Part shown: one piece after another, positions 2,390 through 37,142 of the stretch | How the letters are laid out: each line of letters starts with the position of its first letter | Position numbering within the stretch: the stretch's first letter is position 1 | From: a virus | Virus record (IMG/VR): IMGVR_UViG_3300010885_032216 | Location: 1 to 46,315 of that record | Strand: one strand, 5' to 3' | DNA length: 46,315 bases | Translations under genes and position numbers: made by a program | The notes under the pieces: generated by a model | What the model was told of the DNA's origin: nothing | Seen by the model: the letters and a program-made list of their open reading frames with translations, nothing else | Databases searched by the model: none

Positions 2390-2395
2390 TTTACT

Positions 2396-2488
2396 ATGAG
2401 TAAAAAATTAAATTTAATCGGACTAAAGTTTGCGCGACTTACCGTAATAGAGTATGCGGGAATAACAAAAGAAAGAAATTATAAGTAA
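2396..2488 (+). pseudogene. 5' remnant of an AP2/HNH-type homing endonuclease gene
   Basis: An ORF of 30 codons between groEL and groES. Its core, IGLKFARLTVIEYAG, matches the conserved opening of AP2/HNH homing endonucleases and lines up with GERFGSLVVIQYVG at the start of the intact endonuclease at 7505-6888 in this window. The part that would carry the CxC zinc knuckle and HNH core is missing: the frame stops at 2486-2488, one base before the groES ATG. I read this as the scar of an endonuclease that inserted between groEL and groES and was later deleted. Identification rests on about 15 residues. Confidence 0.7.
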
Positions 2489-2489
2489 T

Positions 2490-2873: not shown

Positions 2874-2908
2874 AATCCCCCGATAAGAAATTGTCGGGGG
2901 ATTTTTTA
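2874..2908 (+). terminator. Intrinsic terminator after the chaperonin operon
   Basis: A perfect 10-bp stem, AATCCCCCGA (2874-2883) with TCGGGGGATT (2894-2903), followed by a T run. It ends the + strand chaperonin operon and overlaps the last codons of the convergent tail gene. Confidence 0.92.
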
Positions 2909-6886: not shown

Positions 6887-6887
6887 A

Positions 6888-7505: not shown

Positions 7506-7509
7506 TTCG

Positions 7510-8876: not shown

Positions 8877-8877
8877 A

Positions 8878-9546
8878 TTATACTACTATTCCTGTTTCTT
8901 TTTTAAATTCATTACTCCAATTTAAAATATCAACGTCTTTTAGGTTTATTCCTACCATAGACAAAAAAACGCTCATTATTCTGTTGGTATTAAATCCATC
9001 CCACTCAAAATCTACCGAACCAATAGGGTTGTAAACTTGCGCTCCATTGACTACTGAATAATTCCATACAGGTGCAGTTAGTGTTGCGAAGTAATCTATG
9101 TAAACTGTCCCTACATTTGCAGGAGCGAACATTAAACCCGATGATATTTGTTGGTATTTAACAAATCGTAGTGTTGGTTGGTTAAGACTGCCCGGTGCAT
9201 TCATCTCTCTCCAATTTACATTATCTACCAATTCGCAGTCATATTGCTTTCCGTTGTATCTGTGTCCTACCGAACAAACGTACTGAAGGTTATCATCCCA
9301 CGGCACTATTGGATTGATTGGATTTACTTGACGAACTAAAGCGTCATTCCCTGCTTTAAGGTATGTTTGTAGAAAGTTTGTAACAACACCTGTTGTGGCG
9401 AACTCGGCATAGTCAGTAGCAAAAATAGCAAATTGGGCTTGGTTAGCCGTATTGGTAAATTCTGCCGATGTTAATGTATTACCCGCATTCGCTTTTAGCG
9501 TTAGATACTTTGCAAACTGATAAAAGGTATTTACGTTTGTAGCCAT
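8878..9546 (-). CDS. Putative virion structural protein
   Basis: A 222-aa protein without recognised motifs. It starts with a helical stretch (MATNVNTFYQFAKYLTLKANAGNTLTSAEFTNTANQAQFAIFATDYAEF), continues with Asn/Pro/Tyr-rich strands, and ends with an amphipathic helix (NIFSNEFKKETG-like). The start ATG lies four bases after the stop of the 616-aa gene, and its stop is one base from the next start. The position between a fibre-like gene and the ring-like genes suggests a neck or tail component, perhaps a tail-completion protein. Confidence 0.45.
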   Translation of the reverse strand: MATNVNTFYQFAKYLTLKANAGNTLTSAEFTNTANQAQFAIFATDYAEFATTGVVTNFLQTYLKAGNDALVRQVNPINPIVPWDDNLQYVCSVGHRYNGKQYDCELVDNVNWREMNAPGSLNQPTLRFVKYQQISSGLMFAPANVGTVYIDYFATLTAPVWNYSVVNGAQVYNPIGSVDFEWDGFNTNRIMSVFLSMVGINLKDVDILNWSNEFKKETGIVV

Positions 9547-9549
9547 TTA

Positions 9550-11400
9550 TTATCCTATTTGAGTAACAACTAAAGTACGACCTTCTATTTGTGTAGCCCC
9601 ATCAGATGCGTTCCTTATAAAGAAATTAACATTAACAACATCGTTCAATGCTAAAGTAGCGATTGTTGTGTGACAAATGGAAAGTTGGTCTGTATTTCCT
9701 GTAACTAAAGCTAACCCTCTCTTTTCATTAGTACCTCCCAATCCAATAGCGGTATCTGTGCTGTTCTTTATAAAGTAATGAGTACCTTCAATGGAGGCTG
9801 CTGATTGATTACTTACTACCGCCTCAAAATCTAATCTATAAATGCCATTCGATGGAATAACTACCCCTGTTGTGAATAGTGTATAAGCTGTATTATCTAC
9901 CGCCAATACTACGGGGGAGCCTAATAATCCGTAATCATAATTAATAGGCAAAGAGCTTAAATCGTAAACCTTATCCCAATACAATGAAAATACAGCACCC
10001 GTTCCGCCTGTAAAAGATACGTTATTAGCAGGTAAAACGGTGTAAACACCTCCACTTGTAATGTGCCAAGTTAATATTCTGTTTGAACCATCTACCGAAT
10101 CCACTACTATCGTTGCAGGGCTAATAAATGTTCCGCCCGATGCTGTTAATATGTCACCTGCGTTAAACCCTGTCCCGCTACTTACAAATTTAGAACCTAT
10201 ACAAACAGCTACTAAACTTACACCGATAGTACCATTTCCACTTGCAACACTTGTGTTCTGAAGTAAGGAAATATTTATTTGTGTCTGCAATGTTCCTAAT
10301 GTAGCATCTATTACGATTATTTCATTATCAATATTCGTGATTTCAACACCCATTTGTTCTACAACACTTACGAATGCAGGGCTTAACTCAATAGTAAATG
10401 TTGTTGTGTTCCCAGAAGTTGTCGGAGTTACTGTTATCCAAGAATTAGCACCCACAACATCGTAAGCACTCACAAGAGAACCTAATCCTATTACTTGTTG
10501 CACTCCACTTCCACATTGACAATCCTCTGTAAAGTTACCCGTTGCTTCCAACTGTGAAATTAATGAACTTATACTTTCTGTCTTACCGCAATTTTGCGCC
10601 AACATAATTAAGGTTACTATACCCATCATATAGGCAAACTGCTCTCTTAAATCCTCGTCAGATGGATTTGCTACACATCTCGCTTGAAAGGTCTTTAAAC
10701 CGCAATATAACTTACAGAACGAAGTTGCATCTATTCTGAAACCTCCCTCAACACTTCCACTCACTAAGTCAACAACCGTAAAGTTAGAATAAACGTAAGT
10801 AAGGTTTGTTATTACCTCCATCTCCACCGTAGTAGGTGAATAGAAAGTAGTAGATGTTGTTGTTGCTGTTGTGCCTACCGTTGGTGTAGGTGTACTCTGA
10901 ACATTATTGACAAGTATTGGAGGGTACGTTATTGTGGCCACCCTGCTTACTGTCGGCACAACCGAATTTACAATGTAAACGGTGTTATCTGTTAAAGTAA
11001 GTAATGGACTTGGTGTATAAACTTGCACCGAACCGCTTACCTCTACCGTTGGACTTGCATAAATAAAATTGAATGTTTCTGTTACAGAATATGGAACAGA
11101 ATTACCATTATCCCAAACGGTATAAACGATTGTGTACAGCCCATTTTCGGGGAGTAAATTACTGATTGGTATTTGTATAGTACCTACACTATTTGGTGAT
11201 ATAGCATTCTTAATATCGTAGTTTGTTGTTGACGGTGTTCCGCTATCATAAACTACGTCCCCGCCAATAGATATTTTAAAGCAACCATACATATCAGATG
11301 CCGTAAGCCCTTGTGAGGCGTAATCTGTGGTATCTGTAAATTGGAATTGCTTAGTACTTAGCGCAAGGTTAAATGTGGTGGAAAAAGAAATAGTTGCCAT
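9550..11400 (-). CDS. Fibre- or head-decoration-like structural protein
   Basis: A 616-aa protein, first gene of a late transcript. The N-terminus (ATISFSTTFNLALSTKQFQFTDTTDYASQG) is a beta-rich opening shared by many Bacteroidota phage surface proteins. Next comes an immunoglobulin-like region with Thr/Val/Pro repeats (about 90-200), a Cys-containing helical part (SFCKLYCGLKTFQARC ... AQNCGK ... DCQCG, about 225-300), a short helical coil (VEQMGVEITNIDNEIIVIDATLGTLQTQI, about 345-375), and a unit GTGFNAGDILTASGG ... ITSGGVYTVLP like the repeats of the fibre-like protein at 22220-20685. The last third looks like a globular beta head. A trimeric fibre or capsid decoration is likely. The tandem cysteines in the middle are unusual for a cytoplasmically assembled fibre. 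Confidence 0.55.
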   Translation of the reverse strand: MATISFSTTFNLALSTKQFQFTDTTDYASQGLTASDMYGCFKISIGGDVVYDSGTPSTTNYDIKNAISPNSVGTIQIPISNLLPENGLYTIVYTVWDNGNSVPYSVTETFNFIYASPTVEVSGSVQVYTPSPLLTLTDNTVYIVNSVVPTVSRVATITYPPILVNNVQSTPTPTVGTTATTTSTTFYSPTTVEMEVITNLTYVYSNFTVVDLVSGSVEGGFRIDATSFCKLYCGLKTFQARCVANPSDEDLREQFAYMMGIVTLIMLAQNCGKTESISSLISQLEATGNFTEDCQCGSGVQQVIGLGSLVSAYDVVGANSWITVTPTTSGNTTTFTIELSPAFVSVVEQMGVEITNIDNEIIVIDATLGTLQTQINISLLQNTSVASGNGTIGVSLVAVCIGSKFVSSGTGFNAGDILTASGGTFISPATIVVDSVDGSNRILTWHITSGGVYTVLPANNVSFTGGTGAVFSLYWDKVYDLSSLPINYDYGLLGSPVVLAVDNTAYTLFTTGVVIPSNGIYRLDFEAVVSNQSAASIEGTHYFIKNSTDTAIGLGGTNEKRGLALVTGNTDQLSICHTTIATLALNDVVNVNFFIRNASDGATQIEGRTLVVTQIG

Positions 11401-11420
11401 TTAAAATAGTTTTGTTTTTG

Positions 11421-11483
11421 CAAAATTACTCCAATGGCAACTATTATTATAGGTACTAAAACCTATTGTTCTTTATAGTGAAC
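11421..11483 (-). promoter_or_regulatory. Late promoter L3 with upstream palindrome
   Basis: The -7 box TAATTTTGCA (its TAATTTTG part lies at 11428-11421, minus strand) is preceded by 39 nt and then GTTCACTATAAAGAAC (11483-11468). Spacing and -7 box are identical at the two other leftward copies (L1, L2). The expected start is a short distance before the 616-aa gene at 11400. The palindrome also touches the stop codon of the upstream gene. Confidence 0.8.
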
Positions 11484-12679
11484 TATCCCAAGTAAGGGGT
11501 GAGAACTTCCTCTCTTACCGCATCAAGAAACGCTTGGTCTGTTTGTAACCTCGTGCGTAATCCCCTGTCACCTTTTCGTCCCAAGAACTTAATTGAGTTT
11601 TTGATAGAATCAGCTTTGTAGATAATTACTGACGTTCCCGATTTGGTAAACAATCCACTTGCAAGACCTTCCTCAATCAACTTATCAGCAGATTCATCAC
11701 TAATGTTTGTCGGTGTCGGTAAATCTGCAAATGTTACAGGCTTAATTTCTTCCTCATCATTTTCAATCGGTGGTGGTGCTACGGTCTTTTTTACCAACTT
11801 CTCACCTTTCCCAATTTGGGTCAATACTTTTTGGTACATCTTTTCCCATTCGCCCGATGTATCGCTTATAGTATTATCTACAAACATATCAATAGGGTCT
11901 GTACCTATCGGTGCGGTTAATAAATGTACCCCTCCTTTTAAGAACAACGCATTTTGCGATTGTACATACTGAATCACCCCTGCATTAATAGCAATCTCTT
12001 TCAGATAGTATTTCTTTAAGAACAATGGATTTTTAATGCCCTCCATAAATTTAGTTGGGTCTTTCTTTGCCATTGCCGATAACTTATACTGTATGTTTTC
12101 GGGGGTCATGTTCTCGTATCCATTCAATGAAACGCAACCATAAGCCATAACAACATCGAAAAATTCGGGGTTGTAAATGAATCCCATCGCCTGTGCAATT
12201 CCCTTATCAGTAGCAATAGCATTGTTAATCTGTGCGTTTTGGTCATATAAATAGAATATCGGTGTTACCGATTTATCTCTGTTAGGATTTGATGCGTTGT
12301 AGTTAGATACTTTAATGTACTCCAACAACGTATTATCATTACCTTGTATCTGTCTATCCCCATTAATAAAGATTAGATTAGTTACTTGTGCAGGATTCTC
12401 CTTTGTGTAGATAGGTTGCTCATCAACATAAATAAAAGGTTCTCCAACAACGTGGCGGATATACCTTGTCTTTTTCTTTTTCTCGCAAAAGATTTTTTCC
12501 TCCATCTTAAACGTAAAGGCAGGATTTACCGACCTGATTTTGTTGACACCTTGACTGTCTGTTGCGTAAGATGTAGATGGATTTGTTTGGATTAACCGAA
12601 AGTGGAATACTTTATTCGGGTCTATGAAGCTACCTTCACTTAACTCTGCAATAGAGCCGTACTCATTGTTTTTTTTCAT
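11483..12679 (-). CDS. Hypothetical late protein downstream of the capsid gene
   Basis: A 398-aa protein of unknown family. Residues 20-130 are mixed alpha/beta with a basic patch (CEKKKKTRYIRH). Residues 170-270 are rich in Phe/Tyr/Asn. A proline- and acid-rich linker (VAPPPIENDEEEIKPV, about 300-315) separates a small C-terminal domain (LIEEGLASGLFTKSGTSVIIYKADSIKNSIKFLGRKGDRGLRTRLQTDQAFL) that looks helical and basic. It follows the capsid gene after a terminator, with a SD-less A/T leader before its ATG. Size and place would fit a virion or maturation protein, but it is not recognised. Transcription may come from read-through of the capsid terminator, because I see no TAnnTTTG box just upstream. 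Confidence 0.5.
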   Translation of the reverse strand: MKKNNEYGSIAELSEGSFIDPNKVFHFRLIQTNPSTSYATDSQGVNKIRSVNPAFTFKMEEKIFCEKKKKTRYIRHVVGEPFIYVDEQPIYTKENPAQVTNLIFINGDRQIQGNDNTLLEYIKVSNYNASNPNRDKSVTPIFYLYDQNAQINNAIATDKGIAQAMGFIYNPEFFDVVMAYGCVSLNGYENMTPENIQYKLSAMAKKDPTKFMEGIKNPLFLKKYYLKEIAINAGVIQYVQSQNALFLKGGVHLLTAPIGTDPIDMFVDNTISDTSGEWEKMYQKVLTQIGKGEKLVKKTVAPPPIENDEEEIKPVTFADLPTPTNISDESADKLIEEGLASGLFTKSGTSVIIYKADSIKNSIKFLGRKGDRGLRTRLQTDQAFLDAVREEVLTPYLG

Positions 12680-12706
12680 TTTATTAGATTGTATTAAATT
12701 AAATTA
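12680..12706 (-). promoter_or_regulatory. SD-less A/T leader shared by three late genes
   Basis: The 27 nt before this start read (minus strand) TTTAATACAATCTAATAAA then ATG. Almost the same leader precedes the scaffold gene (15447-15470) and the 139-aa gene (20603-20625). None has a Shine-Dalgarno sequence, so this is probably a translation-initiation element. Confidence 0.45.
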
Positions 12707-12707
12707 T

Positions 12708-12740
12708 AAAAAAAGTAGAGAAGGTTTTACCCCTCTCTAC
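12708..12740 (-). terminator. Intrinsic terminator after the capsid gene
   Basis: On the minus strand the stem is GTAGAGAgGG paired with CCnTCTCTAC (12740-12715), followed by a run of seven T (12714-12708). It lies 18 bp past the capsid stop and probably sets capsid transcript abundance relative to downstream genes. Confidence 0.88.
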
Positions 12741-12757
12741 TGTACTATTGATACTAA

Positions 12758-14176
12758 TTACTGCTTAGAAATTTTAAACCAGCGTTGACCGGCAAAGCCC
12801 TCGAATCCGTAAGTGGAGTTCATAATATACTCCAATTCATCTGTACGAGTTGTACTTACTCCATCCATCGCACCTAACATTCTTTCGTAGAACTTACGAT
12901 TAGTTTGGTAGTTAACGGTAAATTGAGGTAAGTTTTTGGTAGTAGTCATATCATCCCAACCAATGGTTTTATCAGTTTTATCCAAAGGAATACCTAACCC
13001 CATGTATTGATATTTATGACCTGCTGCTCCTAACAACGGTTTGTAGTCGAACAATTCAGCGTGTTTTTTGTAGAAGATGTGTTCAGAAGAAGCGAACCAA
13101 CGGAAACCGAAGTTAGCGCATTGCTCTTGAGAACCGTTAAATGCTCCATAAGTAACTGCACCCATTTTCATCTCTGCACGAATAAATCTGTCGATGTAGT
13201 TGTTTACGTTAGAAGAACAATACAAAGCATATTCTTCTGCGGCTACGTTTGGCACAAGTTGTCCTGTTACAAAGTTTTCCCAATCCTGCAAAGTGATGTA
13301 AGAAATTAAGTTGTAAGGTAAGTTAAGACCGAAACTTTCGATAAAAGGAATCATACCTTCTGTTGAGATAGAAGTAGATGCTTGTGCAACAGCAGGGTCA
13401 TTCGAGAATACTGTGTTAGTAGTTTTCTGCGATGTCATCAACTGCACCTCAATCTCATTCTTTGCTCTCATCATCTCTTTCAAGTGAGCAACCATGTACC
13501 ACATTTGACCTTCAGATGTAGATACCCATGTTTTTTCTTGACGGGCGTTACCTGAAATAGAGTAAGACCAATCGGAGTTCATCATGTTACCGAAGTAAAA
13601 TACAGGTTGGAAATCACGAGAAGGATTCGCAACTGAACGGTCTCCTTTTTGATTACCCATGATAGTAATGATGTCGGTAGTTAAAGTTGTAGGAATTGCT
13701 GTTCCTAATACTCTTGGATACGCATCGAATGTTCCTGCTGCTGCATCTACGTTTTGAATAACAGCTTGAATCCCGCTTGGGAACTCAATAACCATGTTAT
13801 CATAGATAGGAACTGCCACTTGAGGAACTGTTGTTGCTGTTGCGATAAACGGTGCAGCAGGTACGGCTTCAGGATAACTGTACGAAGGTACAATAGTTGT
13901 GAAACTTACAGACGCATTTGAAGAAGCACCGCTTTGAGCGTTTACAGTAATCGTTTGGTGTAAGAACGGCTCTTCCGCGTGACGGTAAGCCATGTTAGAG
14001 ATGAATCTCTCACCTCCTAATACTTTGGATAAACCTGCAACCGCGAAGTTCTGTTCTCCATAAGTTTTAATCAAATCAGGACGTACTTCAGGCATTAGAA
14101 GTAACGAATCCATGTATTGTTGTGAGCGCAACCAGTTTTCCCCTGTTGCTACTACACTATTAGCACTTGCTGCCAT
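12758..14176 (-). CDS. Major capsid protein (HK97 fold)
   Basis: A 472-aa protein of the size and composition of HK97-fold capsid proteins of Bacteroidota podoviruses. It lies directly after a scaffold-like gene, which itself follows the portal. Features: a helical N-arm (NSVVATGENWLRSQQYMDSLLLMPEVRPDLIKTYGEQNF), an Ala/Ser/Val-rich beta region (80-190), a long spine-like helix (TSEGQMWYMVAHLKEMMRAKNEIEVQLM, about 225-255), and a C-terminal part with conserved-looking aromatic segments (FGFRWFASSEHIFYKKH; KYQYMGLGIPLDKTD). No protease is encoded nearby, so N-terminal cleavage is not predicted. The terminator right after the gene fits a highly expressed product. Confidence 0.85.
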   Translation of the reverse strand: MAASANSVVATGENWLRSQQYMDSLLLMPEVRPDLIKTYGEQNFAVAGLSKVLGGERFISNMAYRHAEEPFLHQTITVNAQSGASSNASVSFTTIVPSYSYPEAVPAAPFIATATTVPQVAVPIYDNMVIEFPSGIQAVIQNVDAAAGTFDAYPRVLGTAIPTTLTTDIITIMGNQKGDRSVANPSRDFQPVFYFGNMMNSDWSYSISGNARQEKTWVSTSEGQMWYMVAHLKEMMRAKNEIEVQLMTSQKTTNTVFSNDPAVAQASTSISTEGMIPFIESFGLNLPYNLISYITLQDWENFVTGQLVPNVAAEEYALYCSSNVNNYIDRFIRAEMKMGAVTYGAFNGSQEQCANFGFRWFASSEHIFYKKHAELFDYKPLLGAAGHKYQYMGLGIPLDKTDKTIGWDDMTTTKNLPQFTVNYQTNRKFYERMLGAMDGVSTTRTDELEYIMNSTYGFEGFAGQRWFKISKQ

Positions 14177-14234
14177 AATTGTTGTTTAGTGTTAAGCCAC
14201 CACCTGTTAAAATTGTTGTTTTGTTTTGTTTGTT

Positions 14235-15446
14235 TTACCCACCTTGAGTATTCTTTACTATTTTTAACACACCTTTATTTCCTTGAGAGGCTTGTGTATT
14301 ATTTGGCGTGAAGTTTACTTTGTTATCGTTCTTAACAGCATATTCAAGTCCTGCTTTAAATTGGTTTACTGCCAATTTCTGCTCTTTCTTTGCTCCTGCT
14401 GTTATGTGTAAGATAACATCATACACCTTCGCCATCACAGCATCATCCCATTGTTTGAGATAACCGTTGGCATCTTTCTCTCCGAATAACCCCCAAAATT
14501 TGTTTAGGTCTGACCCTATTGATGATAGTATTTCGGACGCTATTACTTTGTCCTTTTCATCAATCGCAAATTCGTAAGGTTCTATTTTATCTTTAGCCCC
14601 TCCCATGAGTTTTTGAAACTCATCTTGCGTTTCCTTTGGAAATTCTACTTTGATTTTGTCAACTTTGCTGCTTATTACTTTTAATTTCTCTTGTACTTCT
14701 TTGTTAGCCTTCTCCCATTCAAGTTTTTTAATTTCGTCCGCTTTTTTGGAGTTCTCTATTTCTTGTGGAGTTGGCGTTTTAATAAGTTTGAACTCTTCCT
14801 GTTTTTTGGTTAGTTCTGCACCCGCTTCCTCTGCATCTCTTTTTATCCTCCCCTCCATCACTTCCTTAATCTCCAATTGTTCGGGAGTAAGTTCAATAGG
14901 TTCATCATATTCATTTAATTTTTGTTGAAACTCGTTTAAGCGATACTTTGTTTTTAATTCAAGTGCTATTTCCTTGTCAGTCCATTTAGGGTTTTCATCC
15001 TTCATCTTCGCGGCAAGTAAATCCATCGGGTTTTCAACTTTGCTAAAATCTTTGTTTAGAAAAGCAAGTGTGTTTTCATCGAAGTCTTTTCCGTTATCCA
15101 ATAAATCGGCATACGTCTTTAACTTCGGATACTTATTAAATTTTTCAGTTTCAGCTTTTAGTTTTGTAACCTCCGCTTCTAACTCTAACGCTTTTTCAGC
15201 TTTAGTTTTATACTCTGTCAAAGAACTTTTTACTAAATCTACACTTTCAAAATCGGGAAAGTGTGTCTTAAACTCATCGTCCCACATTTTCGGTGCAGGA
15301 GCGTCTGTACCTTTATTTTCATCCCCCGCAGGTTTATCGTTACCAGCAGGTGGGTCAGTATTCACATCGTCAGTCGGTGCTATACTACTCTTATCAATTT
15401 CAATCGGTACTATATTTAGTACGGGTTCTGTTAATTCTTCAGCCAT
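14235..15446 (-). CDS. Scaffolding-like acidic coiled-coil protein
   Basis: A 403-aa protein, strongly charged and rich in Glu, Lys and Asp. After a disordered Pro/Asp/Ala-rich N-terminus (about 1-60) come coiled-coil segments (EYKTKAEKALELEAEVTKLKAETEKF, about 80-110; LEIKEVMEGRIKRDAEEAGAELTKKQEEF, about 190-220; IKKLEWEKANKEVQEKLKVISSKVDKI). The last 70 residues are a small helical domain and a Gln/Asn tail. An abundant acidic coiled-coil gene between portal and capsid is the usual place for the scaffold around which the procapsid forms. It begins the transcript from late promoter L4 and carries the shared A/T leader. Confidence 0.75.
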   Translation of the reverse strand: MAEELTEPVLNIVPIEIDKSSIAPTDDVNTDPPAGNDKPAGDENKGTDAPAPKMWDDEFKTHFPDFESVDLVKSSLTEYKTKAEKALELEAEVTKLKAETEKFNKYPKLKTYADLLDNGKDFDENTLAFLNKDFSKVENPMDLLAAKMKDENPKWTDKEIALELKTKYRLNEFQQKLNEYDEPIELTPEQLEIKEVMEGRIKRDAEEAGAELTKKQEEFKLIKTPTPQEIENSKKADEIKKLEWEKANKEVQEKLKVISSKVDKIKVEFPKETQDEFQKLMGGAKDKIEPYEFAIDEKDKVIASEILSSIGSDLNKFWGLFGEKDANGYLKQWDDAVMAKVYDVILHITAGAKKEQKLAVNQFKAGLEYAVKNDNKVNFTPNNTQASQGNKGVLKIVKNTQGG

Positions 15447-15474
15447 TTTATATTAGATTAAATTATATTGATTG

Positions 15475-15538
15475 CAAAAATACTTTGTATTACTACTCTA
15501 AAGTTTAAGTCTATAACCTTATGTTCACTATAAAGAAC
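15475..15538 (-). promoter_or_regulatory. Late promoter L4 with upstream palindrome (inverted copy)
   Basis: The -7 box TATTTTTGCA (15482-15475 for the TATTTTTG part, minus strand) lies 40 nt from GTTCTTTATAGTGAAC (15538-15523, minus strand). The palindrome is flipped relative to L1-L3, and the gap is one longer. It should drive scaffold and capsid. Confidence 0.75.
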
Positions 15539-15541
15539 TTA

Positions 15542-17998
15542 TTAGTCTTTTTCTTCCACCTTTTCGGGTGGTTCGTTCTCCATTAATTCCATGTCGGCTT
15601 CTTTCTTGTGTTCTATTTGAGAGTGAGCCGAATGGTGCTTTATTTCATCAGAGGCTATCTTTGTTTGACTTTGCAATACCGCAACGCCCAACTTACCTTC
15701 CTTAGTTATCTGTGTCACCTTAACCTCTTTTTGTTCTTTTGCGTATTCAACATTTAAATTACCCTCGTTTACTAATGAAGTGTTACGAAGTTTACCCGCA
15801 TCAATTACCTCTTGGAATTTAGATTTTAACTCATACTCAACCTGCAGACGCTTAATGTCTGCCTGTAATTGTATGTTTATAGTCTGTTGTTGCATTTGAG
15901 ATGCCACTAAAGCAGATTGTTTTTGTTGTTCCGCATTGGCATTTATCTTTTCAATTTCTGCCGCTTGGTTTGCATCGGCACGTTTATTTTCAAGTTCAAT
16001 AAGTATGTTTGCCGCAAGTTCGGGGTTTTGCTCTAACGCCTCTTCTACTCTCAAAATATCAGATGTCGCCAAAACTCCTTTAGCAATATCATTTTGTAGC
16101 ATTTGCATTGTTTCACTTTTCTTTCTTGCATCGGGCGCAACTTTAATATTTATACCAAGAGTTGCTAATGGTACTTTATCAAGATATTCGATAGCTGATA
16201 CCGCCTCCGCCCCAATAGCCGAAGTAAAGGATTCTTTGTTCCAACGTAATGAATTTTGTATCATTATTGTCGTTCCTTCTACTGTACGTCTTACAAGGTT
16301 TAATTGCGCTAAGTTTATATTCTGTAATGCTTTTGCCGTACCTTGCATTGCCATCTCTTGCGTTCCAACAGGCACATCAGGATTAGCCAACCTTCCATTT
16401 GAAGCATCATTGAAAGCCATCGCATCGTTAATCTCCTGCATACGCATTTGTTTCGATACCAATAAAGCATTCATCTCCGCAGCGTAAGAATTATCTATCT
16501 TTTGAATAGGACTAAACTGAACAGGATTGCCCGATTTATCAGTTGCCCTTCCTGCGATACTTCCCGTTTGAGAATACATAGCATAAAGATTAACCGCTTT
16601 TTTCTTATCGTCCTGCCCTTTTCCAATAGATGCTGTTTCATCAAATGCCGCTTCGTTGATAAAGTTACCCGGAGGTTTCGACATTATCATTAATTGCTGT
16701 ATCTTCTGTTCGATTAAGTTTAATTGGTCTTCCGAAGGGATTGCTTTTTCAACAAGAGATTTATTCTCCATATCATACATATCGGGCGAAATAATCTCGA
16801 TAGGTAGTTTTACCGTTGGTGCGTACCCTCCATTAACTTTAGAGCGGTCTATGTTATCACATTCCTCACAATTAAATATGTAATCACTGTTTAATATCCA
16901 AATCCCTGTGTATAGATACTCCTTTTCAGATGTTCCAAGTAATTCTTTATTCGGCTCTTCTTTGTATTGTGATTTGCGGTCAATATACTCCCCACTACCT
17001 TTCTTAGTCTTTACAATATACTCTTTGCTGATTCCTTTGAACCATATACGCATTGTTGGTATATTGAAGTTGTAGTAAGGCTTAACGAATGTAGATGCGT
17101 TATAGTATCCTTCGTAACTTACCCCCCAACCGCTATTCCATGAAGCGTTATTATATGTGTTACCTTGAAATCTCTCCGCAATTTTAGCCAATGTCTTTTC
17201 ATCAAACTTGTTTGTCATTTGACCTATTTCGGCAATAGTGTATTGTTTTAATATACCAACGTATGGAGTGTTACTAAAATCATCGTATTTACTGTATGGG
17301 TAAACTAAGTCTAAGAAGTCGGCATATTCTACCTTGATGTTTTTATTAGCATCGTAGGAACGCATTGTTGCCGCTTTGTTAATAACCATTAAATCTCTGA
17401 TAATCTTACGTCTTATATCATCATTAAAATTATTGTTTTTCATAACATAGGAGGTTAGTTGCTCCATTGCTAATGTTACTCCTTGCTTTCCCTGTGTTAG
17501 GTAAAATGTTTCAAAACTTTCGTTATTATCGGGTAATTTTGCGCCTTGTGGTACTAAAGGGATTCCTGTTCTTCCCGAAATGTTATGTTGTTTGTCGGCT
17601 TTTGAAAGATACATATTAGCTAACATCTTATTGCGCTGTTTGCTTTCGATAAGTTTTGATTCGGGGTCTAATGCCTCAAATTGTATTGAGAAACGCTGTT
17701 CCATTACCGAACTTACCGCAATGTCAACAAGTTTTGAGATAACTGTTATCGGGCGAAGGTCAACATTCATCCATGACGTACTGTTTTCATCAAGTCCTAA
17801 TCGAGTACGAAAGTCCTCCACAGACTGCTTTCCTGCGGCATACTTACGGTTATCTTTTAATTGAATTATGTAGGTATTAAAGTTATTGTACCATTGAGCG
17901 TATGCCGTTTTGCAATAAGATAAAATGTAAGCGTCAGAAGATTTTTCCTTGCGAGACGCAAGAGGGTTCGGAAATGTATTACCTGTACTATCTGCCAT
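15542..17998 (-). CDS. Portal protein
   Basis: An 818-aa protein with the plan of long portals of crAss-like phages. The N-terminus has KDNRKYAAGKQSVEDF (about 48-63) and DLRPITVISKLVDIAVSSVMEQRF (about 80-103), the opening helices of such portals. A wing with many Tyr and Asn residues follows. It ends in a long Gln/Ala/Lys-rich helical region (about 650-790, for example ANQAAEIEKINANAEQQKQSALVASQMQQQ) that could form the barrel, then an acidic tail. Twelve copies would form the DNA gate at one capsid vertex and dock the terminase encoded just upstream. It is expressed from late promoter L2. The scaffold follows after 95 bp. Confidence 0.85.
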   Translation of the reverse strand: MADSTGNTFPNPLASRKEKSSDAYILSYCKTAYAQWYNNFNTYIIQLKDNRKYAAGKQSVEDFRTRLGLDENSTSWMNVDLRPITVISKLVDIAVSSVMEQRFSIQFEALDPESKLIESKQRNKMLANMYLSKADKQHNISGRTGIPLVPQGAKLPDNNESFETFYLTQGKQGVTLAMEQLTSYVMKNNNFNDDIRRKIIRDLMVINKAATMRSYDANKNIKVEYADFLDLVYPYSKYDDFSNTPYVGILKQYTIAEIGQMTNKFDEKTLAKIAERFQGNTYNNASWNSGWGVSYEGYYNASTFVKPYYNFNIPTMRIWFKGISKEYIVKTKKGSGEYIDRKSQYKEEPNKELLGTSEKEYLYTGIWILNSDYIFNCEECDNIDRSKVNGGYAPTVKLPIEIISPDMYDMENKSLVEKAIPSEDQLNLIEQKIQQLMIMSKPPGNFINEAAFDETASIGKGQDDKKKAVNLYAMYSQTGSIAGRATDKSGNPVQFSPIQKIDNSYAAEMNALLVSKQMRMQEINDAMAFNDASNGRLANPDVPVGTQEMAMQGTAKALQNINLAQLNLVRRTVEGTTIMIQNSLRWNKESFTSAIGAEAVSAIEYLDKVPLATLGINIKVAPDARKKSETMQMLQNDIAKGVLATSDILRVEEALEQNPELAANILIELENKRADANQAAEIEKINANAEQQKQSALVASQMQQQTINIQLQADIKRLQVEYELKSKFQEVIDAGKLRNTSLVNEGNLNVEYAKEQKEVKVTQITKEGKLGVAVLQSQTKIASDEIKHHSAHSQIEHKKEADMELMENEPPEKVEEKD

Positions 17999-18026
17999 CT
18001 TAAAAATATGTTGAATATATAGAATG

Positions 18027-18089
18027 CAAAATTAATTAGATAAATACCTTTTATTGATTACCATATTTGTATTGTTCTTTATAGTGAAC
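18027..18089 (-). promoter_or_regulatory. Late promoter L2 with upstream palindrome
   Basis: TAATTTTGCA (18034-18027 for TAATTTTG, minus strand) is separated by 39 nt from GTTCACTATAAAGAAC (18089-18074). The palindrome is seven bases from the stop of the terminase gene. The expected product is the portal transcript. Confidence 0.82.
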
Positions 18090-18096
18090 CATACCT

Positions 18097-20199
18097 TTAA
18101 TTAGCTTCAATAATTCTACCGTTATGTGTCGGTTTATTATTTCTGTTTATAGTTCCTACTACGGGGAAAAATGTTGAAGGTTGCGCTTGAGGTTTTTTAA
18201 TTTCTATTACAGCGTCCGCCCCCAAACATCCTATCATAGAAGATACACTTAAATCGAAAGGTGTCCACTTCGTAACGTCAAATACTAACCAATCCTTTAA
18301 AGTATTATTAAATGGCATGAATCCCATCTCTCCTGTCTTTTCGTTCTGTCCACAATGGTTTGTTATCCAACTCGACTGATATTCTGTTAATTGTTGTCTT
18401 GTTTTACCGTCAGCATTCGCTAATCCTGCATCCACATTCTTTTCCGAATCCTCAATAAAAGCATCGTTTGTCATTGAAGGAGCAGGTAATAAATAATTAT
18501 GCAAATCCCTATTTCTAAAATAATCATTGCAATTCCTTACGTTTCTTTCAGGTAATAAAGCCCACCCAAAATAAATACATTGCATAATCATATCTTCATA
18601 TACAAGCAAAGGGTCTTTTAACCTATTCCAATATTCAGAAATGTAATGTTTATGTTTTATAGTGTGCATGGAATCAGCTTTCTTTACTCCATGACTTGCC
18701 GCCTTTGAAGGTTTACCATCTGCTCGTACATTGACTGCCGAATAAGGGTCTAATGAAAATAATCCCTTATGTGTATTCGAAGGGGACTTAGCACCATTCT
18801 TTATTATCCATTGATTACATTCTTCTTTAGGAGGAAACCAAGCAAACGACCATTTACACATTGGGTCATCCCATTTTGTTTTTATCCATTCAACTCCATT
18901 AGGATTGTCTCTTATACCGCCTATCCATTGGAAATAACCATACTCTAAGGTATCTTCAATGCCATGAATATCGTTATATTCTATTTGTTGATAAACTTTA
19001 GCAATATCCCAACTCATTAATTCATTAGCAGGATTGATAAACATATCATCTTCGTTAAAAGGATACTCCCTTCTATGTTCATAATAACCAACCATATCTC
19101 CTGCATCTTTATACGCCTTCCTTTCATCTTCTAAGTAAGGTTTTGCCCCTTTGGTTATCCACTCCCCATCAATACCCATAACAGGCTTTTCGGGTGTTTC
19201 AATAACACTCATTCCGTATTCATCAATATGCCCCTCAAAACCATCGTAGGCAGGTGTGAAATATCGGTATAGTCCACTCACAGTTCTACCATTTTCTGTT
19301 TTTTGGGTAAAGTCAGAAAGTTCCCAAATCTTTTTAAACTTAGCACCGCCCTTTCCTTGCTCATTTACAGATGAACCAAACATACATTTACCTGTTATCC
19401 TTGCACCTTTTGATAGGAATTTTCTTGCCTTACTCCACCAAACTTCAACATTAGCTTCTTCCCACTTGCCAGGCTCATCACAAAGGATACGTTTTACAGC
19501 CATACTATCAAAAGAGTTCTCTCTTGTATTTCTCCATGATATTGTAGTATTTAAGGCAATCTTTCGCTCTTGCTTTAATGTTTTTGAGGTGATACGTTGT
19601 ACTGGCTTATCGAATACAATTTTAGTTTCGGAACTTGTTTTTTCTTGTGGCTTCAGAAAATCCCTATACTTTTCAAGTGCGAACTTTAATTTAAGGAAAC
19701 ATTCTTTAGCATCACTTCCTGTCTTTGACATAATACCATAATTGGCATTAAAGGTTCGCCTTGCGTGATTTAGAATATTTGATAAGGCACGATAAGAATA
19801 ACCATCTCTTCTTTTCTTTCCGTAATCCTGCCCGAAACAATCGGGGTCTTTGTCGCATATCTCCCAATGGTAAAACCAACGTCTATCACTATCTCTGTAA
19901 TCAGGATAACCAACGTCAAGTTGAAATTCATTAAGATAATGGAAATGGTCGCCTGTGATATAAGTCTTTACTCCGTTATTAAAAAATGTATATCCAAAAG
20001 TACAATAATCATCTATTTTATTTATAAACACTTCTTGTTCGGAAGGAGACAATGAATCCCAATATTCAGGCAACTCTACTCTTTTCCACTTTTGAAGATG
20101 TTTCTTTACTTTGTAATTATCTACGTCCTTATCCTTTGGTAAATCAGGATAAGTGTAAACAATTCCTTTGTAAATTTCCTCCTTAACTTGCTGTTCCAT
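18097..20199 (-). CDS. Terminase large subunit (packaging ATPase and nuclease)
   Basis: A 700-aa packaging motor. The Walker A region is deviant: QDYGKKRRDGYSYR (about 124-137). A Walker B-like strand, KRILCDEPGKWEE (about 236-248), carries the Asp-Glu pair. A motif like C follows near TGKCMFGSSV. The nuclease half begins near FSLDPYSAVNVR, whose Asp could bind metal, and includes EDMIMQCIYFGWALLPERN. The N-terminal 110 residues, with HFHYLNEF and YPDYRDSDRRWFYHWE, are typical of large terminases of Bacteroidota podoviruses. The enzyme translocates DNA into the procapsid and cuts concatemers. It overlaps the start region of the 139-aa gene by 17 bases, so the two are likely co-translated. Confidence 0.88.
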   Translation of the reverse strand: MEQQVKEEIYKGIVYTYPDLPKDKDVDNYKVKKHLQKWKRVELPEYWDSLSPSEQEVFINKIDDYCTFGYTFFNNGVKTYITGDHFHYLNEFQLDVGYPDYRDSDRRWFYHWEICDKDPDCFGQDYGKKRRDGYSYRALSNILNHARRTFNANYGIMSKTGSDAKECFLKLKFALEKYRDFLKPQEKTSSETKIVFDKPVQRITSKTLKQERKIALNTTISWRNTRENSFDSMAVKRILCDEPGKWEEANVEVWWSKARKFLSKGARITGKCMFGSSVNEQGKGGAKFKKIWELSDFTQKTENGRTVSGLYRYFTPAYDGFEGHIDEYGMSVIETPEKPVMGIDGEWITKGAKPYLEDERKAYKDAGDMVGYYEHRREYPFNEDDMFINPANELMSWDIAKVYQQIEYNDIHGIEDTLEYGYFQWIGGIRDNPNGVEWIKTKWDDPMCKWSFAWFPPKEECNQWIIKNGAKSPSNTHKGLFSLDPYSAVNVRADGKPSKAASHGVKKADSMHTIKHKHYISEYWNRLKDPLLVYEDMIMQCIYFGWALLPERNVRNCNDYFRNRDLHNYLLPAPSMTNDAFIEDSEKNVDAGLANADGKTRQQLTEYQSSWITNHCGQNEKTGEMGFMPFNNTLKDWLVFDVTKWTPFDLSVSSMIGCLGADAVIEIKKPQAQPSTFFPVVGTINRNNKPTHNGRIIEAN

Positions 20200-20602
20200 T
20201 TTTTTGATGTTTCAATGCAAGGTGTTCGGCTGTTCCTGCTTCAGATAAAAGTTTCTTTTCTACTTCATCTTTTTGTTCGGGGGTCATTAGTTTTCTTAAC
20301 TCGAATAGAGTCTTATTAAGAGATAATATGTTTTCAAAATACCACTTAGTCCTATCGAATGACTTATCATCTTTACTTGCAAATAAATCTACAAATCCAT
20401 TTTGGGTAGATTGTTTTACACCATCTTCATTCAACTCAAACGTCTCTTCACCTAATTTTAATTGTTTGTTGAAACTTCGGATTTGATGGTAAACAGTTAA
20501 ATAAGTCTCTACAATAGGACTTGTTTCAAATATCAATAATTTTTGCTCAATTTCTGCAACATAAGCGAGAACCGCCTTGTCTTTTATTACAGGTCTTTCC
20601 AT
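20183..20602 (-). CDS. Hypothetical protein upstream of terminase (possible small terminase subunit)
   Basis: A 139-aa, mostly helical, charged protein. Segments KAVLAYVAEIEQKLLIFE and TYLTVYHQIRSFNKQLKL suggest helical pairs, and the C-terminal half (FDRTKWYFENILSLNKTLFELRKLMTPEQKDEVEKKLL) looks like oligomerising helices. It overlaps the large terminase gene, the usual site for the small subunit, but no helix-turn-helix is obvious. The A/T leader shared with two other late genes precedes its ATG. A packaging accessory protein is the likely alternative. Confidence 0.5.
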   Translation of the reverse strand: MERPVIKDKAVLAYVAEIEQKLLIFETSPIVETYLTVYHQIRSFNKQLKLGEETFELNEDGVKQSTQNGFVDLFASKDDKSFDRTKWYFENILSLNKTLFELRKLMTPEQKDEVEKKLLSEAGTAEHLALKHQKNGTAS

Positions 20603-20625
20603 TATATTATATTAAATTGTATTCT

Positions 20626-20658
20626 AAAAAGAAAGGAGGTATTACCCTCCTATCTTTC
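20626..20658 (-). terminator. Intrinsic terminator after the fibre-like gene
   Basis: The minus-strand hairpin GATAGGAGG...CCTCCTTTC (20658-20631) is followed by TTTTT (20630-20626). It lies 27 bp past the stop of the fibre-like gene. The terminase genes beyond it would depend on read-through or on another promoter. Confidence 0.8.
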
Positions 20659-20684
20659 ACTTATTACTAAACTAAAAAAAACTT

Positions 20685-22220
20685 TTAAGCGTTAATTAGT
20701 GCCGCTACCTCTACGGGTGTTTCATTTACCAATAAAGGATAAGGTGCAGCACTTGACTTGTCGTTAAATAAAATCTTTGTTACCGAATTACTGAATGTAG
20801 CCGTAAAGGTTGCGCCTATACCACTTGCACTTGCGCCTGTTGATGAAACAGGATTGCTTGGTGCTACTGTGTATGCCCCGCCATCTGTTATTGAGAAGGT
20901 ATTTATACCCATTACTATTGTTACTGTTGCGCCTGTTGCTCCGTTTGTTACAGCGTTATTTGTTAAAGTTGGGTTTACAGTGTAGCTTCCTGCATTTGTT
21001 ATAGAGATAATTGCATTTACGCCCATTACAAATGTGCAGAGCATTCCTGTTCCTGTTCCTGTTACGGCTGTTGTTTCACTTACTGCAATAGACGTTGGGT
21101 TCACAGTATAAACACCCGCTGTGGTTAAAGAAAGTGTTTTTACTCCCATTTTTAAAATTACAGTCGCCCCTGACAAACTTCCTCCCGTTACGGGTTCTAC
21201 CGTTATATCTGTTGGATTTACTGTGTAATTTCCCGCTAATGTTATTGCTCCTACTGCTGATATAGAACCACCACCATCAATAGTAACAGCGCACTGAAAC
21301 TTTGTTCCTGTTCCTGTTGTTCCTGTTATTGTTGCTGCGCCCGGTGTTCCTCCTGAACCAACTCCAACAACATCAACCGTTATAACTTTTGTGCTCGTTA
21401 CTGTAAATACAGCTTCTGTTCCTGTTCCTCCATCGGGATTTACGGTATCTCCCGGAGCGTACCCTGCTCCTGCATCGTCAGGTGTCGCTGTGATAGAAAC
21501 AACCTTTGAATTGAACTCCATTTCCGCTACTACCGAAGATGTGCCACCTGCAACGATTAATTGGACTGTTGGGTCTGCACTTGTCCCTGCTGCTGTTACT
21601 GCCCCACTTACAAGTTTTGTGGTATCTACAATTCCTGTTGCGATATGACTGTGTGTACCTCCCGCAAAGTTAAATGTTTCTGTCGGAATCCATGCTGTTC
21701 CTGCTGCTGCTAAAACGGCTGAATTAAGAGATTTATTTGCCGATGTAGCAGATGTTATCTCTGTAATATTTTCAAAGTAAGATGGATTTGCGTAGAAAGT
21801 TGTTGATGTAGTGTTGTTTGTTAAAGCTATTGTAGTTGTACAGTTCGTATTTACTGTCGATGGACTTGCATTAAGAACTTTTACGTCCGCCACTTCGGGT
21901 AAGTTTGAATTGTATAATACTTTAGAATGTCCGTTCCAATCGCTAATTTCTATTACTCGGCTATTATTATAGCAAACATTTACGTTTGAACTTCCATCTT
22001 GTGGTATAGTTGCTTCGATGAATAATGCTTGTGTTGCGTACCCCGCTAAAGTAGCTGTCGATACAGATAGAGTAACATTCAAGTTTGTCCCTTGACCTGT
22101 TTCGTATGTCAAAATAGATTTTGAATTTGAATCGTCTGTTGCGTAAATTACTTTATCTACGTCAAGAACAAAAGGTGTACCATCTGATGATACAAGTGAT
22201 AATGATGTCTCTGTTGCCAT
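20685..22220 (-). CDS. Repeat-rich fibre-like structural protein
   Basis: 511 aa starting at MATETSLSLVSSDGTPFVLD. An in-frame ATG 30 codons further upstream is rejected because it would encode the late palindrome and promoter. The N-terminal 150 residues are beta-rich. From about 230 on the chain holds several units of roughly 45 residues with the signature G-x-Y-T-V-N-P-T followed by Gly/Thr/Ala-rich segments and a hydrophobic KMGVK or VMGIN strand, about five copies. Such repeats are common in phage fibres and suggest a stacked beta structure. It is transcribed leftward from the shared divergent late promoter. A head fibre or tail fibre is likely; I cannot tell which. Confidence 0.6.
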   Translation of the reverse strand: MATETSLSLVSSDGTPFVLDVDKVIYATDDSNSKSILTYETGQGTNLNVTLSVSTATLAGYATQALFIEATIPQDGSSNVNVCYNNSRVIEISDWNGHSKVLYNSNLPEVADVKVLNASPSTVNTNCTTTIALTNNTTSTTFYANPSYFENITEITSATSANKSLNSAVLAAAGTAWIPTETFNFAGGTHSHIATGIVDTTKLVSGAVTAAGTSADPTVQLIVAGGTSSVVAEMEFNSKVVSITATPDDAGAGYAPGDTVNPDGGTGTEAVFTVTSTKVITVDVVGVGSGGTPGAATITGTTGTGTKFQCAVTIDGGGSISAVGAITLAGNYTVNPTDITVEPVTGGSLSGATVILKMGVKTLSLTTAGVYTVNPTSIAVSETTAVTGTGTGMLCTFVMGVNAIISITNAGSYTVNPTLTNNAVTNGATGATVTIVMGINTFSITDGGAYTVAPSNPVSSTGASASGIGATFTATFSNSVTKILFNDKSSAAPYPLLVNETPVEVAALINA

Positions 22221-22244
22221 TTTATTTTGTGGTTTTAATTTGTG

Positions 22245-22353
22245 CAAAATTAACTTATGGTTGAATAGAATTTTAATCTTACCTTTGTATTGTTCTTTAT
22301 AGTGAACCATACACCAAATAAAACAATAGGTATTTTAATAGTTAGTAATTTTG
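22245..22353. promoter_or_regulatory. Divergent late promoters L1 (-) and L5 (+) sharing one palindrome
   Basis: The palindrome GTTCTTTATAGTGAAC (22292-22307) sits midway between two -7 boxes. Leftward, TAATTTTGCA (TAATTTTG at 22252-22245) with a 39-nt gap drives the fibre-like gene. Rightward, TAATTTTGCA (TAATTTTG at 22346-22353) with a 38-nt gap drives the 254-aa, 496-aa and 2482-aa genes. One bound activator could serve both. Confidence 0.85.
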
Positions 22354-22397
22354 CACCTATTAAGATTTAATATGACTAACCTTAAAATATAAATAAT

Positions 22398-23162
22398 ATG
22401 GCAGGAATGGATTGGATGGCGATTGGCAACAGTTCGGGGCAATTAACCCAAGCAGGTATTCAACTTGCAATCGCGGCAGATAAAAAGAGACAAGCCAAAG
22501 GGATAGATGACACATATCGTATCCCCGATGAAATATATCAAAATTTATCACAAGCACACCAACAAGCAATGCAAGGAATGTCAGCACAAGAGGCTAATAA
22601 CTTTGCTAAAAATGTGTATAACCAACAAACGTATGCTAATCAAGGTGCAACTGATAGAAAAGCAGGTATCATAGGATTAGGTCAAACGAATGAAGCGGCT
22701 AACAATGCTTTCTTACAATACGCAGGAATGAATAGTGCCGTACAACGTGCTAACCAAGATAAATTATATGGTATGAGAAGTAACCTTGCAGATTACAAGG
22801 ATATGCAATGGGTTCACAATATCGACCAACCTTATCAGAAATTAATGGGACAGCATGATGCTTATCTTACCGCTTCGGGACGGCAAGCAAGTCAAGCAAT
22901 GGCAAGTGCCGCAGGTTCTAATGCTGATTCGGGAGGACTTGGTAAAAACGATGCCATTGGAAATCAAGGATTACAGAAATCTATGTCAGCACCTTATAGT
23001 GGAAACCCTTATGCTAAGAATGCAGGGACTTATACCGCACCAAACGAAAATATGTTTAACAGAAGCCCTTACGGTGATAATCCATACGGAGGTAATGCAG
23101 GTTCATTCCAAGACCCGAATGCTGGTGCAGGTATGTTTAATAGAGGTGGAACTAAATGGTAA
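22398..23162 (+). CDS. Putative small internal virion protein
   Basis: A 254-aa protein rich in Gln, Ala, Asn, Gly and Met. A hydrophobic N-terminus (MAGMDWMAIGNSSGQLTQAGIQLAIAA) precedes helical Gln/Ala segments (ADKKRQAKG ... YQNLSQAHQQAMQGMSAQEANNF). The last 80 residues are low complexity with NPYAKNAGTY and NPYGGNAGSF repeats. Composition and place, first of three co-directional late genes ending in a giant protein, resemble small internal virion (ejection) proteins of podoviruses, which leave the head with the DNA and help build a channel through the envelope. The function is inferred. It is followed after 11 bp by the next gene. Confidence 0.5.
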   Translation: MAGMDWMAIGNSSGQLTQAGIQLAIAADKKRQAKGIDDTYRIPDEIYQNLSQAHQQAMQGMSAQEANNFAKNVYNQQTYANQGATDRKAGIIGLGQTNEAANNAFLQYAGMNSAVQRANQDKLYGMRSNLADYKDMQWVHNIDQPYQKLMGQHDAYLTASGRQASQAMASAAGSNADSGGLGKNDAIGNQGLQKSMSAPYSGNPYAKNAGTYTAPNENMFNRSPYGDNPYGGNAGSFQDPNAGAGMFNRGGTKW

Positions 23163-23173
23163 ATAAATAAACT

Positions 23174-24664
23174 ATGTACGATATTTCAGCGCACCCATAC
23201 CAGCCACAGCCCGACATGATAAACAAAAGTGCGGGAGTTGTTAATGACCCTGCTATTGATTTAGGGTATGCAAAGTTACACGAAGACCAACAACAAAGAC
23301 GACAAGCGCAGGAGGAACATAACCAACAACTTCACGCAAAAATGTTGGACGATAAACTATCAAAAGTAAAAGATAGTATCCGCCCTGCCGACCAAGAGGC
23401 GATTGCTAAAAAACAATCCGATTACGCCAAAATAGTTGAAGATAATATTGAGGGTATGCGTAAAGGCGATACTAAATCTATATTAGCAATCAACGAAGCG
23501 GAAAGAAACTTAAATAGTACTATTGCTGAATCTAATGCGCTCTATCAAAAAGAAACCGCTATTTCACATGGATTAAAAGGTGATGAATATGGTTTTGAAG
23601 ATTGGAATAAGTCAACACAGACACCTTATGTAGATAGTAAAGATAGTTACGTTAATCATATCCCGAAAGCAAAACAAGACTTGCAAAAGGAATGGAATAC
23701 GGAGTATGTACCGGGACTTATACAATCAAAAGCGATGTCGGGGTATGCGACAAATAATCCCGATGGAAGCACAACATGGACTACAACAGGTATTTTAGAT
23801 AAAGATGCGGTTGATTCGGCAAAGGAAAAGATGTTTTTAAACAGTAAAAATGCGGCAAGTGAAATACACAACCGATTCCAATATGAGAAAAACTCCGACA
23901 ATCCTTCATCTCTAAAAACAAAGTATGCTTATCAAGACCAAGAGGGTGAGAAGTTAGACTACAAACAAGCGTTCAAAGATGCTTTATATACTCCTGATGT
24001 TATTAATACAGCGCATACGGGGCAGAAGCCTCAACCTGCACAATGGCAATCAGCAGGAGCAACAGCAAAAAACAATCCTGTTAATTTTGGATATTTGCCC
24101 GACAATAAATCGGTAGTTGAAATGAACGATAAAGTTGTTTCACTAACAGATGCTAATGGAAGACCTTTAAATACAAATCAGTTTATAGTAAAACATGATG
24201 AAAGCACAGGAGAACCTATCGCGGTAGAAGCTAAAATTAATTACACACCTGCTGAAAAATCTGCTGATAAGGAATGGAGTACTTATGATAAATTATTAAA
24301 AGACTACAAACAAAGAGTTCAGCAAGGGATAGATAACGCTAAAAAAACGTCTAAAAATTTAGGCGACCAAAAACTAAAAGAGGAGGAAGCTATGATTATT
24401 ATTGGCGACCCACCTCCCGCACCAAAGGTAGAGCGACCTATTTATAAAAATGGGGAGATTGTACCTATAACAGATAAGGAACAAGTTAAATCGGTACTTA
24501 ATCAGTTCCCTGTAAACATAACTGATGCTTATAAAGGAGGATTGAAAGGAGTTAATTACACAGGCAGGAAAGAAATAATAAACACCCCCGAACAAAAGTC
24601 TGACAAAAAAACTTGGCAAGAAATGAACGGAGTTAAACCTAAAAAGAAAATAACAGGATTCTAA
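23174..24664 (+). CDS. Putative internal virion protein, helical
   Basis: 496 aa, highly charged and Gln/Lys/Asp-rich, with long helices (KLHEDQQQRRQAQEEHNQQLHAKMLDDKLSKVKD, about 35-70; AINEAERNLNSTIAESNALYQKE, about 110-130; KEWSTYDKLLKDYKQRVQQGIDNAKKTSKNLGDQKLKEEE, about 365-405). The last 80 residues are Pro/Lys-rich and contain PPPAPKVERPIYKNGEIVPI. No membrane segment or enzyme motif is visible. The stop overlaps the next ATG as TAATG, so translation is probably coupled to that of the 2482-aa protein. The middle-size member of an ejection-protein set is the likely role. Confidence 0.5.
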   Translation: MYDISAHPYQPQPDMINKSAGVVNDPAIDLGYAKLHEDQQQRRQAQEEHNQQLHAKMLDDKLSKVKDSIRPADQEAIAKKQSDYAKIVEDNIEGMRKGDTKSILAINEAERNLNSTIAESNALYQKETAISHGLKGDEYGFEDWNKSTQTPYVDSKDSYVNHIPKAKQDLQKEWNTEYVPGLIQSKAMSGYATNNPDGSTTWTTTGILDKDAVDSAKEKMFLNSKNAASEIHNRFQYEKNSDNPSSLKTKYAYQDQEGEKLDYKQAFKDALYTPDVINTAHTGQKPQPAQWQSAGATAKNNPVNFGYLPDNKSVVEMNDKVVSLTDANGRPLNTNQFIVKHDESTGEPIAVEAKINYTPAEKSADKEWSTYDKLLKDYKQRVQQGIDNAKKTSKNLGDQKLKEEEAMIIIGDPPPAPKVERPIYKNGEIVPITDKEQVKSVLNQFPVNITDAYKGGLKGVNYTGRKEIINTPEQKSDKKTWQEMNGVKPKKKITGF

Positions 24665-37102: not shown

Positions 37103-37142
37103 CAAAGGTAATTGGTTGGTTAATACGAAATCCAATTGTGAA
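37103..37142 (-). promoter_or_regulatory. Early promoter P1 with DnaA-box-like element
   Basis: On the minus strand TTCACAATT (37142-37134; full box TTATTCACA) lies exactly 23 nt from TACCTTTG (37110-37103). The start of the repeat gene at 37077 follows. The same arrangement occurs at P2, P3 and P4. Confidence 0.8.

Follow-up and report, generated by a model that had tools for sequence, protein, structure and literature searches.

A repeated palindrome at near-constant distance from predicted late promoters of a Bacteroidota phage, and a different palindrome at the orthologous operons of its relatives

The late promoters of phage P2 carry a dyad near -55, and the class I site of CRP in Escherichia coli lies near -61.5. 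The P2 family has four late promoters and the zinc-finger activator Ogr, with one dyad common to the divergent promoters PP and PO, and in Smp131 the PP' and PO' sites consist of the same bases (PMC3931495). Promoters of the primary sigma factor of Bacteroidota are characterized by TTTG at -33 and TAnnTTTG at -7 (PMC7366714). Regarding the Crassvirales, the best-studied phages of this phylum, a review considers that late genes are probably read by the host polymerase and mentions no promoter elements (PMC10136315). Here, we analyzed the IMG/VR virus record IMGVR_UViG_3300010885_032216 over its positions 1 to 46,315 (46,315 nucleotides [nt], hereafter the window), in which a 16-base-pair (bp) palindrome, GTTCTTTATAGTGAAC, stands at a near-constant distance from a host-type -7 box ahead of the virion genes. 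The large terminase protein (TerL) places this phage among the podovirus-like phages of Bacteroidota.

We consider it likely, with a probability of about 0.7, that five virion operons are headed by late promoters of the host sigma-A type which are activated by a dimeric factor from a dyad near -58. In silico analysis revealed exactly four copies of GTTCTTTATAGTGAAC in the window, at 11468-11483 (+), 15523-15538 (-), 18074-18089 (+) and 22292-22307 (+), and no further copies with one or two mismatches; with up to three mismatches the total reached six, a number attained by 0 of 100 shuffled sequences. The symmetric core of the operator is GTTC-N8-GAAC, and copies C and D belong to a longer dyad, TAT-N-GTTC-N8-GAAC-N-ATA. 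The exact box TAWTTTTGCA was found six times, at 11419-11428 (-), 15473-15482 (-), 18025-18034 (-), 22243-22252 (-), 22346-22355 (+) and 44475-44484 (-). The last is unrelated to any palindrome, while the other five lie 38-40 nt from one, the gaps at promoters A, B, C, D- and D+ being 39, 40, 39, 39 and 38 nt. Two divergent promoters share the single dyad at 22292, the leftward box being 39 nt and the rightward box 38 nt away from it. In 200,000 random placements of the four palindromes, at most two boxes fell at a gap of 37-41 nt, compared with the five observed. The box pattern with one mismatch permitted is not enriched when taken alone (28 found vs. 23.8 expected), and the signal thus resides in the combination of palindrome and spacing. 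The initial annotation of this DNA had proposed the same four palindrome sites and the same five spacings, and both were borne out by exact-match scanning and measurement; its start of the B box, 15475, has to be moved to 15473.

Each of the five boxes matches TAnnTTTG shortly before a gene, as in promoters of the Bacteroidota primary sigma factor, and reads nearly identically across the promoters (TAATTTTGCA, with TATTTTTGCA at B). The ATG of a virion gene follows 26-36 nt downstream of the box T, leaving a leader of 16-26 nt after the 10-nt box. In contrast to the primary sigma promoters, the late promoters have an added upstream dyad and no -33 element in the interval searched, since no TTG or TTTG was found 15-27 nt before any of the boxes, an absence which in Flavobacteria is weak evidence. 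When the five promoters were aligned on the box, no other common sequence was recognized by eye between palindrome and box. The elements and the operons they precede are as follows:

11468-11483, minus strand: late operator A, GTTCACTATAAAGAAC in gene direction, 39 nt before the box
11419-11428, minus strand: -7 box of late promoter A, TAATTTTGCA; ATG of 9550-11400 28 nt from the box T
2906-11400, minus strand: operon A, with a virion gene of 616 amino acids (aa) (9550-11400), virion structural proteins, an HNH endonuclease and a 1331-aa structural protein (PHROGs; homologs in contigs G002/G004)
15523-15538, minus strand: late operator B, GTTCTTTATAGTGAAC in gene direction, 40 nt before the box
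15473-15482, minus strand: -7 box of late promoter B, TATTTTTGCA
11483-15446, minus strand: operon B, with a 403-aa protein (14235-15446), a head structural protein (12758-14176) and a 398-aa protein (11483-12679)
18074-18089, minus strand: late operator C, 39 nt before the box
18025-18034, minus strand: -7 box of late promoter C, TAATTTTGCA
15542-17998, minus strand: portal gene, first behind promoter C (phrog_6547, E=5.3e-68)
22292-22307, no strand: late operator D, common to two divergent promoters
22243-22252, minus strand: -7 box of late promoter D-, TAATTTTGCA
22346-22355, plus strand: -7 box of late promoter D+, TAATTTTGCA
18097-22220, minus strand: operon D-, with its first gene, a small terminase-like gene placed by position (20183-20602) and TerL (18097-20199)
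22371-32112, plus strand: operon D+, with its first ATG (about 22371) 26 nt from the box T, followed by 22398-23162, 23174-24664 and a 2482-aa gene (24664-32112)

Essentially the whole virion gene set is headed by these five promoters. The open reading frame listed at 20685-22310 starts upstream of promoter D-, and the true start of this first gene is at about 22220, with its ATG 32 nt from the box T. No palindrome was found near the early region; open reading frame positions and PHROG matches thus agree with the earlier statement that all sites precede virion genes and none adjoins early genes. Read toward the gene, the operators of A, C and D- are GTTCACTATAAAGAAC and those of B and D+ are GTTCTTTATAGTGAAC, so that their orientation is immaterial. 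Within operons B (12679-12758) and D- (20602-20685), G+C-rich hairpin-like sequences were also observed (GTAGAGAAGG...CCTCTCTAC and AGGAGGTATTACCCTCCT), which are possible intra-operon terminators or attenuators. Genes for a phage GroEL and a GroES-like protein lie at 734-2858 (+), and in relatives GroEL also stands beside the terminase region.

In the proposed mechanism, the palindromes are probably docking sites for a protein that switches the virion genes on late in infection. The host RNA polymerase would read the five operons from promoters with the host-type box TAATTTTGCA, and a dimeric DNA-binding factor, phage-encoded or phage-recruited, would bind GTTC-N8-GAAC, centered some 58 bp ahead of the start, and recruit polymerase from the upstream side. 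The near-constant spacing would keep the factor on one helical face, the operator may function in both orientations because it is symmetric, and copy D would drive both divergent operons. If the box is taken as -11 to -4, the dyad centers lie at -57.5 to -59.5. Since the operator of the window lies outside the core promoter at a near-constant phase, recruitment appears to be the best explanation. The class I activator reading of the initial annotation stands insofar as a distinct, virion-only promoter class was found with a position like that of an upstream activator, a fixed helix-face spacing to the core promoter and no -33 element, whereas activation itself and a contact with the alpha C-terminal domain are predictions. 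As in CRP class I promoters, a site for a dimer precedes the core promoter and keeps to one face of the helix; the differences are that no CRP-like site or gene was found and that the regulon is that of a single phage. Some points weigh against activation from near -58. The transcription starts are predicted from the sequence, only this phage has its palindrome near -58, that of the relatives lying nearer to the box, where a repressor fits too, and Pfam, PHROG, zinc-finger and relative searches identified no regulator gene.

The layout works like the Ogr/B/delta late promoters of P2, 186 and P4, with few late promoters before virion operons, an upstream dyad at each, a host sigma factor and one dyad shared by two divergent promoters. 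It differs in that the operator is GTTC-N8-GAAC and not TGT-N12-ACA, with which only the inner GT-N12-AC coincides: the sites read TGTTC...GAACC, TGTTC...GAACT or AGTTC...GAACA, and one arm always fails. In addition, the -7 box is of the Bacteroidota type, the center lies at about -58, and no gene for a CX2CX22CX4C zinc finger was found. Since neither the operator consensus nor the activator gene of these phages was found, the system is not a member of the P2 type.

In IMG/VR, the TerL query returned relatives, and the portal and D+ second-gene queries returned none. Cultured relatives (Cellulophaga phages, Flavobacterium elemo, Maribacter Panino and Tenacibaculum Gundel) have TerL proteins only about 25-33% identical, and the nearest IMG/VR contigs are L006 (= G002) with 56%, L005 with 55%, L007 with 51% and G004 with 47%. 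The window palindrome occurs in none of the loci fetched through the terminase; the scan of related phages that the initial annotation had suggested thus shows that palindrome and spacing are not conserved in close relatives. L005, G002 and G004 carry a different 19-bp palindrome, ATTTAGAATNATTCTAAAT (the F-box), before TAnnTTTG at orthologous late operons, and the window has no such palindrome within 4-15 nt of TAnnTTTG. The F-box sites are the following:

G002 33272, G004 29085: F-box at the A-type gene
G002 27205, G004 25164, L005 8642: F-box at the B-type gene
G002 21937, G004 22679, L005 3458, G003 20390: F-box at the portal gene
G004 19515, L005 6110 (degenerate, with a TGTCTTTG box): F-box at the small and large terminase operon
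G002 13378: F-box at the D+-type gene

Therefore, for each of the window's five late transcription units, an F-box stands at the counterpart in one or more of the relatives. The gap between F-box and -7 box is invariably 7 nt in G004, with its five sites; in L005 it is 6-8 nt, and in G002 9 and 14-15 nt. The short contig L007 has one TAATTTTG promoter before its portal gene and no evident palindrome. As in the window, the F-box promoters combine one palindrome each with a host-type -7 box at the same virion operons; they differ in that the palindrome is unrelated, is centered about 15-25 nt upstream of the box vs. 46-48 nt in the window, and is widespread among viral contigs. The initial annotation had regarded absence of the spacing from close relatives as evidence against its proposal. 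The spacing is indeed absent, but the relatives carry another palindrome at another distance, which argues for operator replacement and not for lack of regulation. On this comparison of sequences, conservation extends to the regulon but not to the operator or to where it stands, and the earlier reading of a promoter class confined to virion operons is further backed by one common palindrome, of different sequence, at the same operons of the relatives. Because the orthologous operons in the window and in three relatives are each marked by one shared palindrome that differs between phages, they appear to be one regulon, controlled in trans by a single factor; such a pattern would be hard to explain unless a factor reads the palindromes. 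We tentatively propose, at slightly less than even odds, that the late regulon of this clade swapped its whole operator set at once, between the F-box near the box and the unrelated palindrome near -58, in either direction and together with its factor, and that the F-box represents a class of late promoters which is widespread in Bacteroidota phages and has not been described before. The compared proteins are about 25-56% identical to those of the relatives, a distance at which intermediate stages of replacement were not seen.

A search of IMG/VR with the F-box unit returned 104 stretches with a modal gap of 7-8 nt, often 4-40 nt before genes for portal, tail-tube-like or prohead-protease-like proteins, as judged from N-terminal sequences. 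Carriers of ATTTAGAATNATTCTAAAT-N7/8-TAnnTTTG include L005, G002 (L153/L154), G004 (L157-L159), L039-L142 and the contigs G005 and G006, the last two of which share almost no genes with the clade of the window; none of seven records matched the control pattern, in which the unit was reversed. The exact palindrome-box unit of the window, searched in one orientation, had no match in IMG/VR. With both orientations and a looser box three matches appeared, which we judged to be chance, two being one and the same stretch, apparently coding, in contigs of 43% GC and one lying in a 30% GC contig, and the ten matches among 84,980 genomes (species), scattered over unrelated phyla, were judged likewise. 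Among 247 Bacteroidota genomes, the F-box unit and the window unit were each found in one, that of the window unit being the genome through which the phylum was reached. No F-box with a -7 box was found in the cultured distant relatives phi13:2, phi38:1, elemoE, Panino and Gundel, and the cultured relatives likewise show no palindrome-box units of the window type. In Flavobacterium phage 6H (L166 19906-20028), a weak F-box-like site with two mismatches lies next to an XRE regulator, in the gap between divergent genes, and hints at what type of protein may read the F-box. The F-box core TTAGAAT-N-ATTCTAA resembles a 7-1-7 box of the Fur family.

A second promoter arrangement was found at genes of the early region, where TTCACAAYT stands exactly 23 nt before TAnnTTTG at 37103-37142 (-), 38426-38465 (-), 40821-40860 (+) and 44614-44653 (+), with 0.01 occurrences expected. 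At least two classes of promoter can thus be told apart in this phage by their upstream elements, which differ in sequence and in their fixed distance from the box, as a temporal program would lead one to expect; the designation early (or early/middle) is assigned by gene content. Three of the four early copies read TTATTCACA, which is DnaA-box-like; as DnaA boxes these were rejected, as their count alone is not above chance (4 vs. 2.8), though their placement is fixed. A further dyad family, approximately TTGATARAAATANCAA, forms five tandem pairs, 36 nt start to start, at 571/607, 32230/32266, 37152/37188, 40634/40670 and 45082/45118, none of them within the virion operons. IMG/VR contains no match to the exact pair pattern, and the pairs could be repressor, stoperator-like or replication sites. 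Elsewhere in the window, a type-P3 twister ribozyme lies near the end, at 46046-46118 (+) (Rfam RF03154, 44.5 bits), and a 440-aa protein at 35755-37077 (-) contains a long tandem repeat of the ANVG/DNVL type.

Concerning the factor itself, one gene of the window was considered:

44720-45019, plus strand: candidate regulator of 99 aa, XRE/Cro-like by eye, unconfirmed

This helix-turn-helix-like gene stands behind one of the TTCACAAYT-N23-TAnnTTTG promoters. Its protein has no Pfam match, a weak PHROG match (E=0.018), a poor structure model (predicted local distance difference test score 51.5) and no relatives in annotated phages or IMG/VR, and is an unconfirmed candidate for the palindrome binder. 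A six-frame scan of the window for an Ogr-like C4 zinc finger, CX2CX22CX4C, gave only spurious frames antisense to coding genes, and the regulator may lie outside the window. As for a gene common to the F-box phages, the only shared protein, of 113-128 aa, is SSB-like.

The last result leaves the compared records with no regulator gene in common, which, together with the presence of the F-box unit in otherwise unrelated phages (podovirus-like G002, G004 and L005 vs. G005 and G006), is consistent with a host transcription factor exploited by the phage as the binder. This would be a variant of activation from upstream and not exclusive of it, and we regard it as possible but doubtful: host genomes nearly lack the window unit, as well as the F-box unit, at the frequencies given above, and no host regulon with the window unit is visible, although single sites or other spacings would escape the search. 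Less probable still, and on balance unlikely, is that the palindromes are operators at which a phage repressor or a host factor silences the virion genes early, or in a carrier or lysogenic state, and is later removed. Symmetric operators are typical of repressors, and the F-box of the relatives, which would fit an activator replacing the -33 contact, also occupies the stretch immediately ahead of the -7 box, so that a protein bound there would obstruct polymerase; we retain repression because this closer position is compatible with it. In the window, however, 38-40 nt separate the operator from the box, which places the operator outside the core promoter; steric repression would have no need of such a near-constant spacing, and at D a single upstream site is shared by two promoters.

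The nearly identical box and the lack of a -33 element could also mean that the palindrome belongs to a phage-specific element recognized by a modified or alternative polymerase or sigma factor. We find this improbable, as both orientations at the same spacing and the bidirectional dyad D are more easily reconciled with a separate dimer than with a polar contact by sigma, and no RNA polymerase or sigma gene was recognized among the scanned genes, which did not include that of the 2482-aa protein. Finally, repeated palindromes arise in phages for many reasons, and the window itself holds a second repeated dyad family, so that a role in packaging, replication or RNA termination with coincidental promoter proximity may be envisaged. 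Such a role seems very unlikely given the five fixed spacings to a box, the position of copy D between divergent genes, where no upstream transcript ends, and a 4-bp stem too short for a terminator.

The literature searched yielded no description of late promoter elements in Bacteroidota phages, and the elements of the window would thus be among the first directly testable ones of their kind in this phylum. Both operators, GTTCTTTATAGTGAAC and the F-box version ATTTAGAATCATTCTAAAT, could act as phage-type-specific expression switches for Bacteroidota, where tools of this kind are few. The one-to-one replacement of operators at orthologous promoters would furthermore represent a clean case of a whole regulon changing its regulator.

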